This document shows, piece after piece, positions 9,118 through 15,209 of a stretch of 64,000 nucleotides of DNA. The notes under the pieces are model-generated. The model was not told where the DNA came from, searched no databases, and was given only the letters and a program-made list of their open reading frames with translations. Origin of the DNA: Acidimicrobiales bacterium (GTDB lineage: Bacteria > Actinomycetota > Acidimicrobiia > Acidimicrobiales > UBA8190); assembly GCA_035531755.1 (NCBI GenBank), contig DATKSK010000003.1:1-64000 (forward strand), written 5' to 3'. The position numbers and the translations under genes are program-made. Numbering within the stretch: the first letter of the stretch is position 1; each line of letters opens with the position of its first letter.

Positions 9118-9153
9118 TCAGCGGGCCACGACGGCCGGCTTGCTGAAGGCCGA

Positions 9154-9180
9154 TTCAGCGTTGTTCAGCTGCCGTTCAGC
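9154..9180 (+). promoter_or_regulatory. three TTCAGC direct repeats upstream of the secreted peptide gene
   Basis: TTCAGC occurs at 9154-9159, 9164-9169 and 9175-9180, that is with periods of 10 and 11 bp; an inverted copy (GCTGAA) is at 9142-9147. The same hexamer recurs four times at an exact 11-bp period ahead of the response regulator gene (9623-9661). Tandem sites about one helical turn apart are typical for OmpR/PhoB-type regulators. I infer that the adjacent regulator binds here to control the peptide gene. Confidence 0.6.
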
Positions 9181-9237
9181 GGACCACCTGCACGATGACC
9201 ATGCATCATCAAACCCAGCAAGGAGTTGCACATCACG

Positions 9238-9528
9238 ATGAACCTCACACGGAAGCTAGCCATCGGAGTGGGCGGCATGCTCGGCGTCGTGGGCGTGGCG
9301 GGCGGAGTCGCATTCGCCCAGTCCTCGCCCTCGTCGGCAGCGTCCACCCCCGCGACGCATGCGCCGGACCTGACCCAGCCGACCGCCTCGGGCGCGGCCA
9401 CCGAAACGCAGGGAACGGGGGCGGAGACGCCGGGAGTCGAGGAGCCAGGTGACGCCGGCCTCCCCGGCGGCGGACACGCTGACACGGCCGGCCAAAACGT
9501 GGACCACCAGTTCGAGGGCGTCGAGTAA
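9238..9528 (+). CDS. small secreted protein of unknown function
   Basis: A 96-residue protein starting MNLTRKLAIGVGGM. It has a classical signal peptide: basic start, hydrophobic core to about residue 24 (GVVGVAGGVAFA) and an AFAQ-S type cleavage site. The mature part is 65-70 residues, acidic and rich in Ala, Thr, Gly and Pro, without cysteines or known domains. The ATG at 9238 is chosen because AAGGAG (9220-9225) lies 12 nt upstream; a TTG at 9226 would sit directly on that site. Three TTCAGC boxes precede it and a strong terminator follows, so it is a monocistronic unit probably controlled by the neighbouring two-component system. Confidence 0.7.
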   Translation: MNLTRKLAIGVGGMLGVVGVAGGVAFAQSSPSSAASTPATHAPDLTQPTASGAATETQGTGAETPGVEEPGDAGLPGGGHADTAGQNVDHQFEGVE

Positions 9529-9547
9529 AGCCCCTCGTCCTCGGGCC

Positions 9548-9579
9548 GGAGGAGGGACGCCTACGGGCGTCCCTCCTCC
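9548..9579 (+). terminator. strong intrinsic terminator after the secreted peptide gene
   Basis: A perfect 14-bp stem (GGAGGAGGGACGCC with its exact complement) encloses the loop TACG and is followed by ATTT. It lies 20 bp after the stop codon and separates the peptide gene from the response regulator gene. Confidence 0.85.
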
Positions 9580-9622
9580 ATTTCGTGGGCATGCCCGCCC
9601 CCCGCACAGCCCCCTGCCGACG

Positions 9623-9661
9623 TTCAGCCGACGTTCAGCCGACGTTCAGCCGACGTTCAGC
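9623..9661 (+). promoter_or_regulatory. four TTCAGC boxes at 11-bp period upstream of response regulator gene
   Basis: TTCAGC is repeated at 9623, 9634, 9645 and 9656, each unit being GTTCAGCCGAC. The exact 11-bp period and head-to-tail direction match the way OmpR/PhoB-family dimers bind. The array ends 40 bp before the response regulator start, a position suited to autoregulation. The same hexamer precedes the secreted peptide gene at 9154-9180. Confidence 0.65.
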
Positions 9662-9701
9662 TCGCAGGGGGCACGATGGAGTCCGAGGAAGAGGACGTCC
9701 G

Positions 9702-10379
9702 GTGCGGGTGCTCATTGTCGAAGACGAGACAAAGATCGCGGCGGCGGTGCGCCGCGGCCTGGAAGCCGAGGGCTTCACCGTCGAGGTTGCCCTCACGGGG
9801 ACCGACGGGCTGTGGATGGCGACGGAGAACTCCTACGACGCCATCGTGCTCGACATCTTGTTGCCGGGGATAAACGGGTACGAGGTGTGCAGGAATATCA
9901 GGGAAGCGGGTGACTGGACACCGATCCTGATGCTCACCGCCAAGAGCGGCGACTATGACCAGGCAGAGGCGCTCGACACCGGCGCGGACGACTACCTGAC
10001 CAAGCCGTTCTCCTTCGTGGTGCTCCTAGCCCGCCTCCGCGCCCTGCTTCGCCGGCGTGGGCACTCGGAACCGGTGGTGTACGCGGCGGGCGACGTCAGG
10101 CTCGATCCGGTCACCCACCGCTGTGCGCGCGGGGAGGTCGAAGTGGCGCTCACGGCGCGAGAGTTCTCCGTGCTGGAATTCCTGATGCGACGGGCCGGCG
10201 AGATCGTCACGAAGGCGGAGATTCTCGACAACGTGTGGGACTTCGCATTCGATGGCGACCCCAACATCGTCGAAGTCTATATCCGCCACTTGCGTAGAAA
10301 GCTCGAGGAGCCGTTCGATCGTGGCCTCATCCAGACGATTCGCGGCGCGGGCTACCGACTCGACCGCAACGGAGGTTGA
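9702..10379 (+). CDS. OmpR-family two-component response regulator
   Basis: A 225-residue response regulator. The receiver domain (about 1-115) has acidic residues EDE at 7-9, phospho-acceptor Asp51 in IVLDILLPG, the Thr in MLTAKS and Lys in YLTKPFS. The C-terminal part (about 125-222) is a winged-helix DNA-binding domain with LTAREFSVLEFL and VEVYIRHLRRKLE. The GTG at 9702 gives the standard start VRVLIVEDE and has GAGGAAGAGG upstream. It is followed by its sensor kinase; the gap from regulator stop to kinase start is only 5 bp. Four TTCAGC boxes upstream suggest autoregulation. Confidence 0.93.
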   Translation: MRVLIVEDETKIAAAVRRGLEAEGFTVEVALTGTDGLWMATENSYDAIVLDILLPGINGYEVCRNIREAGDWTPILMLTAKSGDYDQAEALDTGADDYLTKPFSFVVLLARLRALLRRRGHSEPVVYAAGDVRLDPVTHRCARGEVEVALTAREFSVLEFLMRRAGEIVTKAEILDNVWDFAFDGDPNIVEVYIRHLRRKLEEPFDRGLIQTIRGAGYRLDRNGG

Positions 10380-10384
10380 GCGGG

Positions 10385-11734
10385 GTGCGCGGATTCGCGT
10401 CCGTTCGGGTCCGTATAACCCTGGCTGCGGTCATCGTCGTGGCGCTTGCCCTCGCGGCTGGTGGGGCCTGGGTGGTCAACGCTCACCGCGTCTCGCTGAT
10501 CGACAACATCGAGACGGCGGCACGACTGCGGGCTCGTGACGTCGCCACGACTGTTGCCGACGGAACCCCGACTTCCCCACTGGCCGTGACGCCGGGCGAC
10601 GAAAGCGCGGTCCAGGTGGTTGATGTGCGCGGGAATGTGATCGCCGCATCATCGAATATCGAAGGTCAGCCGCGCATCAGCACGCTGCAACCCGGTCCTT
10701 CGGGCTTCGCCTCCCGCATGGTCGCCCGTCTGCCCGTCGGGGATTCCTCGTTCCTCGTCGTGGCGCTCCGGGTAGCCACACCGAGCGGCACCTACATCGT
10801 GTACGTGGCGGGGAGCCTCAATATCGTGGGCGCCAGCACGAACAGTCTCGCCCGGCTCCTGCTCATTGGGCTGCCGGTCCTGCTGCTATTCGTGGCCGGG
10901 ACGACCTGGGTGGTGAGCGGCAGGGCGCTCCGGCCGGTGGAAGCGATCCGCCAACAGGTCGAGGTCATCGGGGCCGAAGACCTCCACCAACGTGTCCCGG
11001 AGCCGAACAGGGTCGATGAGATTGGTCGTCTGGCGCGCACTATGAACGCCATGCTCGGTCGGCTCGACGATGCGAACGAGCGCCAACGTCGATTCATCGC
11101 CGACGCGAGCCACGAGATCCGCAGCCCGCTGACGGGCATACGAGCCCGGCTCGAAGTCGATCTGGCGCATCCTAGCGGTGCTGACTGGCAGGCAACCGAG
11201 CAAGATGTGCTGGACGACGCGATCCGGCTGCAGCATCTGGTGGATGACCTGCTCGTCCTCGCCGCGTCGGACGCCTCGTCGTCAGGCGTATCTGCCCGCG
11301 AGCCGATCGACCTCGATGAGATCGTGATGACCGAAGCGCGGAGGCTACGCAGCCGCTCATCTCATCGTATCGACACCGCCGGTGTCTCGGGCGCGCAGTT
11401 CCTCGGCGATGCCGACGCGTTAACTCGAGCGGTACGGAACCTCCTCGACAATGCCGCGCGGCACGCACAGTCAAAAGTGACCATAACCCTGACCGAGTCC
11501 GACACAACGGTTACGCTCATCGTCGCCGATGACGGTCCCGGGATCCCGCCTGATCAACGCCTGCGGATCTTTGAACGGTTTGCTCGCCTTGACGACGGTC
11601 GGGCCCGCGATCTCGGTGGCACTGGGCTTGGCCTGGCTATTACCCACGACGTCGTGGTGTCACACGGCGGTCGGATCGACGTCGACAACGCGCCCGGAGC
11701 ACGTTTCACGGTTTCCTTCCCACTTGCCGTTTGA
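10385..11734 (+). CDS. two-component sensor histidine kinase
   Basis: A 449-residue membrane sensor kinase. Transmembrane segment 1 (about residues 10-32) and segment 2 (about 155-178) enclose an extracytoplasmic sensor region of about 120 residues with no recognised fold. A HAMP linker follows, then HisKA with FIADASHEIRSPLTG (phospho-acceptor His), and HATPase with NLLDNAARHA, DDGPGIPP and GGTGLGLAIT. GGAGG at 10371-10375 supports the GTG at 10385 rather than the TTG at 10376. It pairs with the upstream regulator. Base composition of this pair is visibly less GC-biased than in the core genes. Confidence 0.92.
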   Translation: MRGFASVRVRITLAAVIVVALALAAGGAWVVNAHRVSLIDNIETAARLRARDVATTVADGTPTSPLAVTPGDESAVQVVDVRGNVIAASSNIEGQPRISTLQPGPSGFASRMVARLPVGDSSFLVVALRVATPSGTYIVYVAGSLNIVGASTNSLARLLLIGLPVLLLFVAGTTWVVSGRALRPVEAIRQQVEVIGAEDLHQRVPEPNRVDEIGRLARTMNAMLGRLDDANERQRRFIADASHEIRSPLTGIRARLEVDLAHPSGADWQATEQDVLDDAIRLQHLVDDLLVLAASDASSSGVSAREPIDLDEIVMTEARRLRSRSSHRIDTAGVSGAQFLGDADALTRAVRNLLDNAARHAQSKVTITLTESDTTVTLIVADDGPGIPPDQRLRIFERFARLDDGRARDLGGTGLGLAITHDVVVSHGGRIDVDNAPGARFTVSFPLAV

Positions 11735-13653: not shown

Positions 13654-14271
13654 TCACAGCGCACTCTCCCCGAGCTGGCGCCGCCAGCCGACGACGCGAC
13701 GGGCGAGCTCGATGGCGATGCTCACGACGAGCGCCAGGCCGAGGGCGAGGAGAAAGCCCGCCCAGGGCTTGCCGGCGAAGGCCTTGCCACCGAGCCGGCC
13801 GATGAAGAAGGCGTATGTCGCCCAGATCACCCCGGCGGTGGCTGTGGCGGGGACGAACTGCCGTCGCGGGTAGCCGATCGCGCCGCAGGTGAACGTCACG
13901 GCGGTGCGGCCGCCGGGGACAAAGCGGCAGACGATGATGAGGCGGGCGCCGAAGCGCTCGAGCGTGCGCTCGGCCCATGCCCTGCGTTCGGCGCCACGGG
14001 CACTCGAGAAGAACGTCCGGTTGGCCCACGGGCCGTAGTGCCGCCCGATCAGATAACACAGATTGTCTCCGAGAAACGCTCCGCCTGCGGCGAGGGCGAC
14101 CAGGACGGCGATTCGCGGATCGATGCTCCCGGCGGTGGCGACACCCAATGCCACGATGGCCGTCTCGCTCGGGAGGACGGGGAAGACGGCGTCGAGGGTG
14201 GGGACCAGGAAGGCCACGAGGTACGACAGGGCCGCGTCGACCTGGAGGTCCGAGAGAAGGCCGACCGTCAT
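13654..14271 (-). CDS. DedA family membrane protein
   Basis: A 205-residue DedA/VTT protein: AVFPVLPSETAIVALG carries the conserved P-x-x-P-S-E motif, and CRFVPGGRTAVTFTCGAIGY holds the conserved R-F-x-P-x-x-R block. The ATG at 14271 overlaps the TGA of the terC-like gene by one base (TGATG), so translation is coupled; a GTG one codon earlier is possible. Together with TerC and the DMT transporter it forms a three-gene membrane operon. The role is likely lipid carrier flipping or membrane stress tolerance. Confidence 0.9.
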   Translation of the reverse strand: MTVGLLSDLQVDAALSYLVAFLVPTLDAVFPVLPSETAIVALGVATAGSIDPRIAVLVALAAGGAFLGDNLCYLIGRHYGPWANRTFFSSARGAERRAWAERTLERFGARLIIVCRFVPGGRTAVTFTCGAIGYPRRQFVPATATAGVIWATYAFFIGRLGGKAFAGKPWAGFLLALGLALVVSIAIELARRVVGWRRQLGESAL

Positions 14272-15209
14272 CACGTCCTGGATGCTCCCGCCGGCACCAC
14301 CGCCTTGCGCGGTTCGTGCCAGACGCTGATGGCGATCGAGATGCCGATGATCACCACGATGGCGATCAGGCTGGCGAGGATCGGGATGACCACCAACCAG
14401 GCCAGCAACATCTTGAGTCCGACGAAGATGAGAAGCGCAGCCACCCCGTACTTGATGTAGGCGAATCGGTGGAGCGCGCCGGCCAGCACGAAATACAGCG
14501 CACGAAGACCCAGAACGGCGAAGGCATTCGCAGTGAAGACGACGAAGACGTCTCTCGTGACTCCGAAGATCGCGGGGATGGAGTCCATGGCGAAGACCAG
14601 ATCGGTGACCTCAATGGCAATCAGCGCCACGAGCAGTGGTGTCGCCATCAGTCTGCCGTCGTGCCGACCGAAGAACCGTGCGCCGACGTACGTGGGAGTC
14701 ACAGGGAGAACACGGCGGAGACCCTTGATGACGAAATTGCGCTCCGGATCGACAAGAGCGGTGTCACGCACCATGCGTCCTGCCGAGAGGAGCAAGAGGG
14801 CGCCCAGGACGTAGAGGGCCCAGCTGAAGTGGTCGAGGAGTGAGGCACCGGCGGTGATGAAGACGCCTCGAAGCACGAGCGCGCCGAAGACTCCGTAGAA
14901 GAGGACTCGGCGTTGATGGGTCGGTGACACGCCAAAGGAGCCAAAGAGGAGAGCGAAGACGAAGATGTTGTCGATGCTCAGCGACTTCTCGATGAGGTAG
15001 CCGGCAAAGTACTCCGATGCACTGTCCCAACCCCGGGTCGCTCCCAGTACCAGTCCGAACAGGACACCGACGCCGATCCAGCCGGCGCTGACGGCGATCG
15101 CATACCGGAGGCTGATCTGGCGGACGCCGCGGTGCACGGCGAAATCGACGGCGAGGAGAGCGGCGATCAACGCACCGGCCGCAAACCAGCACCACAGGGG
15201 AACACTCAC
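14271..15209 (-). CDS. TerC family integral membrane protein
   Basis: A 312-residue TerC/Alx-type protein with about nine membrane helices. The family motif SLSIDNIFVFALLF (around residue 76) and the second motif AIEVTDLVFAMDSIPAIFG carry the paired acidic residues thought to bind metal. TerC proteins export Mn2+ or metallate secreted enzymes, and older work links them to tellurite resistance. I looked for a yybP-ykoY Mn2+ riboswitch upstream and did not find one. It is the first gene of a coupled operon with DedA and a DMT transporter. Confidence 0.92.
   Translation of the reverse strand: MSVPLWCWFAAGALIAALLAVDFAVHRGVRQISLRYAIAVSAGWIGVGVLFGLVLGATRGWDSASEYFAGYLIEKSLSIDNIFVFALLFGSFGVSPTHQRRVLFYGVFGALVLRGVFITAGASLLDHFSWALYVLGALLLLSAGRMVRDTALVDPERNFVIKGLRRVLPVTPTYVGARFFGRHDGRLMATPLLVALIAIEVTDLVFAMDSIPAIFGVTRDVFVVFTANAFAVLGLRALYFVLAGALHRFAYIKYGVAALLIFVGLKMLLAWLVVIPILASLIAIVVIIGISIAISVWHEPRKAVVPAGASRT

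Follow-up and report, generated by a model that had tools for sequence, protein, structure and literature searches.

In the 64,000-nucleotide stretch of Acidimicrobiales DNA analyzed here as a whole (the window), a response regulator (RR), the sensor histidine kinase encoded behind it and a small exported protein quite probably constitute a self-contained UipRS-type circuit that would operate at two promoters, with the exported protein as a feedback modulator. The two halves of this reading are held with different confidence: it is highly probable, judging from the sequence evidence, that the RR binds and activates both promoters, while the proposal of feedback from the exported protein to the kinase, which is made by analogy, stands at about even chances.

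The locus and its repeat arrays

The features of the locus, with window coordinates and strand, are the following:

9143–9147, minus: CTGAA, a TTCAG half-site of the target operator in inverted orientation, matched in position by 38 of 39 three-site target promoters of relatives
9154–9180, plus: three direct TTCAGC half-sites with periods of 10 and 11 bp, ahead of the secreted protein gene
9191–9196, plus: predicted -10 element CACGAT of the secreted protein promoter, +16 to +21 from the last TTCAG
9238–9528, plus: gene for a 96-residue secreted protein of an unnamed family with a conserved C-terminal tail
9548–9579, plus: 14-bp GC-rich hairpin, a likely terminator, downstream of the secreted protein gene and ahead of the RR promoter
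9617–9661, plus: four direct TTCAGC half-sites with an exact 11-bp period, ahead of the RR gene
9672–9677, plus: predicted -10 element CACGAT of the RR promoter, +16 to +21 from the last TTCAG
9702–10379, plus: response regulator (Response_reg and Trans_reg_C), UipR-like, GTG start
10385–11734, plus: sensor histidine kinase (HAMP, HisKA, HATPase_c) with a short extracytoplasmic mixed alpha/beta domain, UipS-like

The TTCAGC copies start at 9154, 9164 and 9175 before the gene for the 96-residue protein (periods 10 and 11) and at 9623, 9634, 9645 and 9656 before the RR gene (period 11 three times), copy for copy and period for period as the initial annotation had described them. Tandem Repeats Finder reports the RR array as a perfect tandem repeat of 11 bp with 4.2 copies at 9616–9661, so the copies beyond the conserved two may stem from slippage. 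The pattern TTCAGC-N4/5-TTCAGC was observed five times in the window against 0.01 expected after shuffling it, and these five places are the sole occurrences in the genome (3,276,893 bases in 77 contigs); the looser TTCAG-N5/6-TTCAG is likewise confined to the same five places of the 3.28 Mb. Throughout this genome, the array patterns had no occurrence on the reverse strand and none for a reversed control. The initial annotation had called for such a scan and named frequent arrays elsewhere as the outcome that would speak against a shared regulon; TTCAGC arrays with 10–11 bp spacing proved confined to the two promoters. It had also assigned the regulator to the OmpR/PhoB family, which is borne out by a receiver domain (PF00072, E 3e-28) and a winged-helix domain (PF00486, E 5e-27). 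Two elements are additions to it, namely CTGAA at 9143–9147, which completes a conserved operator in the window (0 expected), and the identical CACGAT hexamer at equal distance from both arrays.

The small secreted protein (96 residues) combines a signal peptide with an acidic stretch of low complexity and a C-terminal tail ending LPGGGHADTAGQNVDHQFEGVE. The hairpin behind its gene is strong (region 9526–9600, MFE -47.4 kcal/mol, z -5.5) with a weak T tract, and it was not among the calls of a terminator scan; since it lies between the small gene and the promoter of the RR, the two genes are probably transcribed separately. The longest ORF in frame with the RR begins at 9585 and traverses the array; as the conserved start is 9702, automatic annotation may put the RR array within the gene. 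The AlphaFold model of the kinase (mean pLDDT 91) has strands at residues 74–144 between two long helices, and a fold search with this model gave matches dominated by the kinase core, which carried no information on the sensor domain. The best NCBIfam matches of RR and kinase are heavy-metal RR and kinase subfamilies; these matches fall below the cut-off and so give no metal assignment. A few kb downstream, the window holds ORFs that by eye are DedA-like (13654–14274) and TerC-like (14271–15209).

Association of the array with one clade of response regulators

A protein search returned 80 relatives of the RR with 60–79% identity across Actinomycetota, from Acidimicrobiia, Micrococcales, Nocardioides, Actinoplanes, Nonomuraea, Streptomyces and others, the searched genomes being samples and several of the relatives metagenome bins. 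The array TTCAG-N6-TTCAG (period 11) was found on the coding strand within 200 bp upstream of the RR start in 61 of these 80 orthologues. The other 19 have no forward array, the closest orthologue (L010, 79%) included; in L010, a single TTCAGG lies upstream of the RR and the array stands instead before a divergent DedA-type gene. This gene (L010:1249–1890) encodes a membrane protein with a VTT domain. Among loci of other OmpR-type RRs from the window's family (42–54% identical), none of 29 had the array. The next-best RR within the window's own genome is 45% identical, and the RRs of the Microbacterium loci are 61–64% identical; in two complete Microbacterium chromosomes, TTCAGS-N4/5-TTCAGS occurs solely at the RR promoter and at a second promoter. 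Elsewhere in the orthologue loci, TTCAG pairs were counted 37, 53 and 38 times at spacings of 10, 11 and 21, respectively, and 0–3 times at every other spacing; the pairs at these three spacings are a second set of arrays.

The distribution of the RR is patchy, possibly as a result of horizontal transfer. The best RR match in 16 other genomes of the window's family is 54% identical, other families of the class reach 67–70% and one metagenome bin 79%.

Operator and promoter geometry

Second promoters with at least three sites were found in 39 cases, with periods that are nearly always 10 and 11 as in the window, and they share the fixed operator CTGAA-N6-TTCAG-N5-TTCAG-N6-TTCAG. When these promoters are stacked on the last TTCAG, the inverted CTGAA stands at -32 in 38 of the 39. 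The -10 element (nAnnnT) is equally fixed in place, with A at +17 and T at +21 in 84% of the 61 RR promoters, 95% of the 39 three-site promoters and 100% of 28 two-site promoters, and the A/T pair at any other offset from the last TTCAG in at most 33% of promoters. The half-sites cover the -35 region and the -10 begins 10 bp after the last half-site, an arrangement that both window promoters fit; head-to-tail half-sites one turn apart over -35 with a -10 at fixed distance are the configuration of OmpR/PhoB-type class II activation. In pho promoters, the distance from the site to the -10 is short and fixed. PhoB sites overlap the -35 (PMC3348028). This shared PhoB-type geometry would make activation a better inference than repression.

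The operator alone leads back to the same regulator. A search for CTGAA-N6-TTCAG-N5-TTCAG in 396 genomes of the phylum returned the window and 15 further sites in 14 genomes, 12 of them beside an RR 58–61% identical and 2 more beside a related kinase; these 14 sites precede an exported protein gene, mostly PepSY-like by eye.

Targets of the second promoter

Behind the second-promoter arrays, 43 of 64 genes encode PepSY proteins (target-gene starts in relatives being annotated by rule), and the array-controlled target proteins are acidic. The array target in Microbacterium maritypicum is UipA (PDB 7ath, E 3e-94), a uranium- and iron-binding protein that is reportedly the subject of a paper by Gallois et al. 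in the ISME J of 2022. Because the same operator precedes uipA in Microbacterium, the RR and kinase of the window can be identified as UipR and UipS homologues. No PepSY protein was found in the window genome, and the 96-residue protein gave no PepSY match; it stands in the slot where Microbacterium has UipA and most relatives have PepSY proteins.

Other kinds of target were also observed. A third kind (L019, L055, L067 and L035:6873–7580) is exported and has a DNPYxP-like motif, belonging neither to the PepSY nor to the tail proteins. In two Dactylosporangium loci (L065:3188–3988 and L086:3188–3988), arrays precede genes upstream of the RR, including those of DUF347-type membrane proteins; no PepSY gene lies behind these arrays, and the RR itself is without an array.

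The tail-protein family

Searches of Pfam, NCBIfam and PDB with the tail protein gave no credible family, and when the literature was searched for UipRS/UipS or the tail sequence, the matches listed were all unrelated. Among 395 genomes of the class, profile searches detected relatives in 9, and among 396 genomes of the phylum in 17, with the window's genome counted in both. The family is characterized by a tail like LPGGGHxDPxGxNVDHQFEGVE, the C-terminal 22 residues being conserved; it carries conserved H, D and E residues, and F and G are conserved about equally. One tail histidine is replaced by T in G147, and the middle motif DTDNxQxGDQTTPD of many relatives is missing from the window protein.

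An RR or kinase match lies within about 1.5 kb of 24 of the 26 hits outside the window, compared with 1 of 17 control loci, which are loci of weak hits. No clear tail is present in five of the 26 (L168, L182, L184, L185 and L187), and 19 of the 21 with a tail are linked. Conserved synteny of peptide, regulator and kinase, which the initial annotation had proposed to look for, is seen to recur in related genomes, including G147 of another family of the class (RR 70%), where the order is protein, RR and kinase and the TTCAG array TTCAGCCGATTCAGCTGCTATTCAGC precedes the RR; a second copy of the tail protein in G147 is divergent. A small exported protein beside a two-component system, which characterizes modulators of the DbfQ/FeuN type, is thus the arrangement found. 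In G112, the array lies about 65 bp upstream of the tail-protein gene with no kinase near. Divergent members of the family adjoin kinases of only about 30–37% identity, so kinase adjacency of the tail protein need not imply direct contact.

An independent second form of the arrangement occurs in a distant clade (RR 39–47% identical), which has TTCAT-N6-TTCAT (period 11) in the tail-protein promoter, with the -10 again at a fixed distance, one base closer than with TTCAG; in L236 and L238, a TTCAT array also precedes the RR. The half-sites thus appear to drift from TTCAG to TTCAT with the 11-bp architecture kept. In 18 tail-protein promoters, 19 period-10/11 repeats were counted, where shuffled sequences gave 4.1 on average and 9 at most, a comparison that is indicative given mononucleotide shuffles and related loci. 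In L164–L167, which belong to intermediate clades (RR 51–67%), TGTGA...CACACG-like repeats lie upstream of the tail-protein gene and may represent a further, third variant of the half-site in this operator.

Proposed mechanism and alternative explanations

In the proposed circuit, the kinase would respond to a signal at the cell surface by phosphorylating the OmpR/PhoB-type regulator, which would then bind in head-to-tail orientation to TTCAG half-sites spaced by one helical turn over the -35 and recruit RNA polymerase to the -10 that begins 10 bp beyond the last half-site. The first of the two promoters would drive the regulator–kinase operon in positive autoregulation, and the other, with its one inverted and three direct half-sites, would drive the small exported protein. 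With less certainty, this protein may act outside the membrane on the kinase sensor domain as a feedback modulator, its conserved C-terminal tail serving as the contact and its variable acidic stretch as a spacer. That the RR acts on its own promoter and on the one ahead of the neighboring secreted protein gene, as the initial annotation had suggested, is well supported at the sequence level by conservation of array and -10, by the absence of the array from paralogous RRs, by exclusivity, by the motif-only search and by synteny. More tentatively, and at somewhat less than even confidence, the unnamed tail family may supply neighboring sensor kinases throughout Actinomycetota with a dedicated partner outside the membrane, replacing PepSY modulators without homology to them in the same closed circuit, whose half-sites drift from TTCAG to TTCAT.

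The two-promoter circuit could be the same with the secreted protein as its output, an acidic metal buffer or envelope protectant that does not touch the kinase. UipA, which binds uranyl and iron, occupies the same operator slot in Microbacterium, the target proteins are acidic, the tail has its conserved H, D and E, and the RR and kinase match heavy-metal regulator families best, though below the cut-off. However, the tail family keeps its link to two-component systems even at RR identities of about 40%, which a kinase partner fits better; conservation of the F and G in the tail is similar to that of the possible metal ligands; and a tail histidine is T in G147. We regard the output role as unlikely, although it is the main competitor. 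It is distinctly improbable that the tail is released by cleavage and diffuses as an autoinducing peptide to be sensed by the kinase, which would make the circuit a gauge of cell density. A short exported protein with a low-complexity spacer and 22 conserved C-terminal residues, an adjacent kinase and positive autoregulation would suit such a pheromone, but near-identity of the tail in distant species is not what known pheromones show, the counterparts of PepSY type are folded domains, and by eye no dedicated exporter or protease was recognized among the neighboring ORFs.

The arrays themselves might belong to another regulator or a repressor, with the adjacent RR uninvolved, as the G112 array without an adjacent RR could suggest and as RR sites predicted from sequence would permit. 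This is very improbable, since the array follows this RR clade alone, the motif-only search leads back to it, and sites over -35 with a conserved -10 occupy the activator position in this family. A tandem repeat born of chance or slippage without function has a negligible probability: the RR array is indeed a perfect 11-bp tandem repeat, but 0.01 was expected in the window, the array is unique in the genome and it is conserved in many genera. For the two-site core, conservation across genera refutes a chance origin.

Comparison with known systems

The UipRS–UipA system of Microbacterium has been described in a 2022 review, according to which UipRS lies upstream of uipA and a sensing role for UipRS had not been shown (PMC8963506). 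The window shares with it an orthologous RR and kinase in RR–kinase order, a common operator before an exported target gene (one inverted and three direct half-sites with the -10 in register) and a target that is acidic and exported or membrane-anchored. Unlike UipA, the window target is not a PepSY protein, sits upstream of the RR and belongs to a genome without PepSY. DbfQ of Vibrio cholerae, which binds the sensor domain of DbfS in the DbfQ–DbfRS system (PMC12714742), is likewise a small exported protein encoded beside a two-component system, but it is a PepSY protein of a Gram-negative organism, whereas the window protein is without a PepSY match and its kinase binding is putative. FeuN of Sinorhizobium meliloti is a small protein that modulates its two-component system FeuPQ, and a candidate FeuP site, TTCA-N7-TTCA, is an 11-bp direct repeat present before feuN (PMC3616915). 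The window resembles it, by analogy, in having a small protein as putative modulator and an 11-bp direct-repeat site, while FeuPQ comes from an unrelated lineage and has a larger regulon (at least 14 genes).

The PHO box of Streptomyces PhoP and Microlunatus PolR consists of GTTCAC direct repeats with an 11-bp period bound by an OmpR/PhoB-type regulator (PMC6754071; PMC7866108). The period and the regulator type recur in the window, where binding is predicted, but the half-site is TTCAG[CG] rather than TTCACC and the target is one exported protein rather than phosphate genes. Identity with a PHO box or PhoP regulon was rejected, as the half-site is TTCAGC, the targets differ and only two promoters in the genome carry an array. 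CutRS/CssRS of Streptomyces was also rejected as a match, the CutR site being TAWATAAA.

Biological significance

UipRS-type systems gain a base-resolved operator that is open to immediate testing, and the match to the uranium- and iron-related UipRS–UipA makes the wiring of the window circuit testable. In some genomes, nothing beyond the circuit and one exported protein is recognizable as its regulon. The unnamed protein family is a likely partner for sensor kinases, a class of proteins for which few signals are known.
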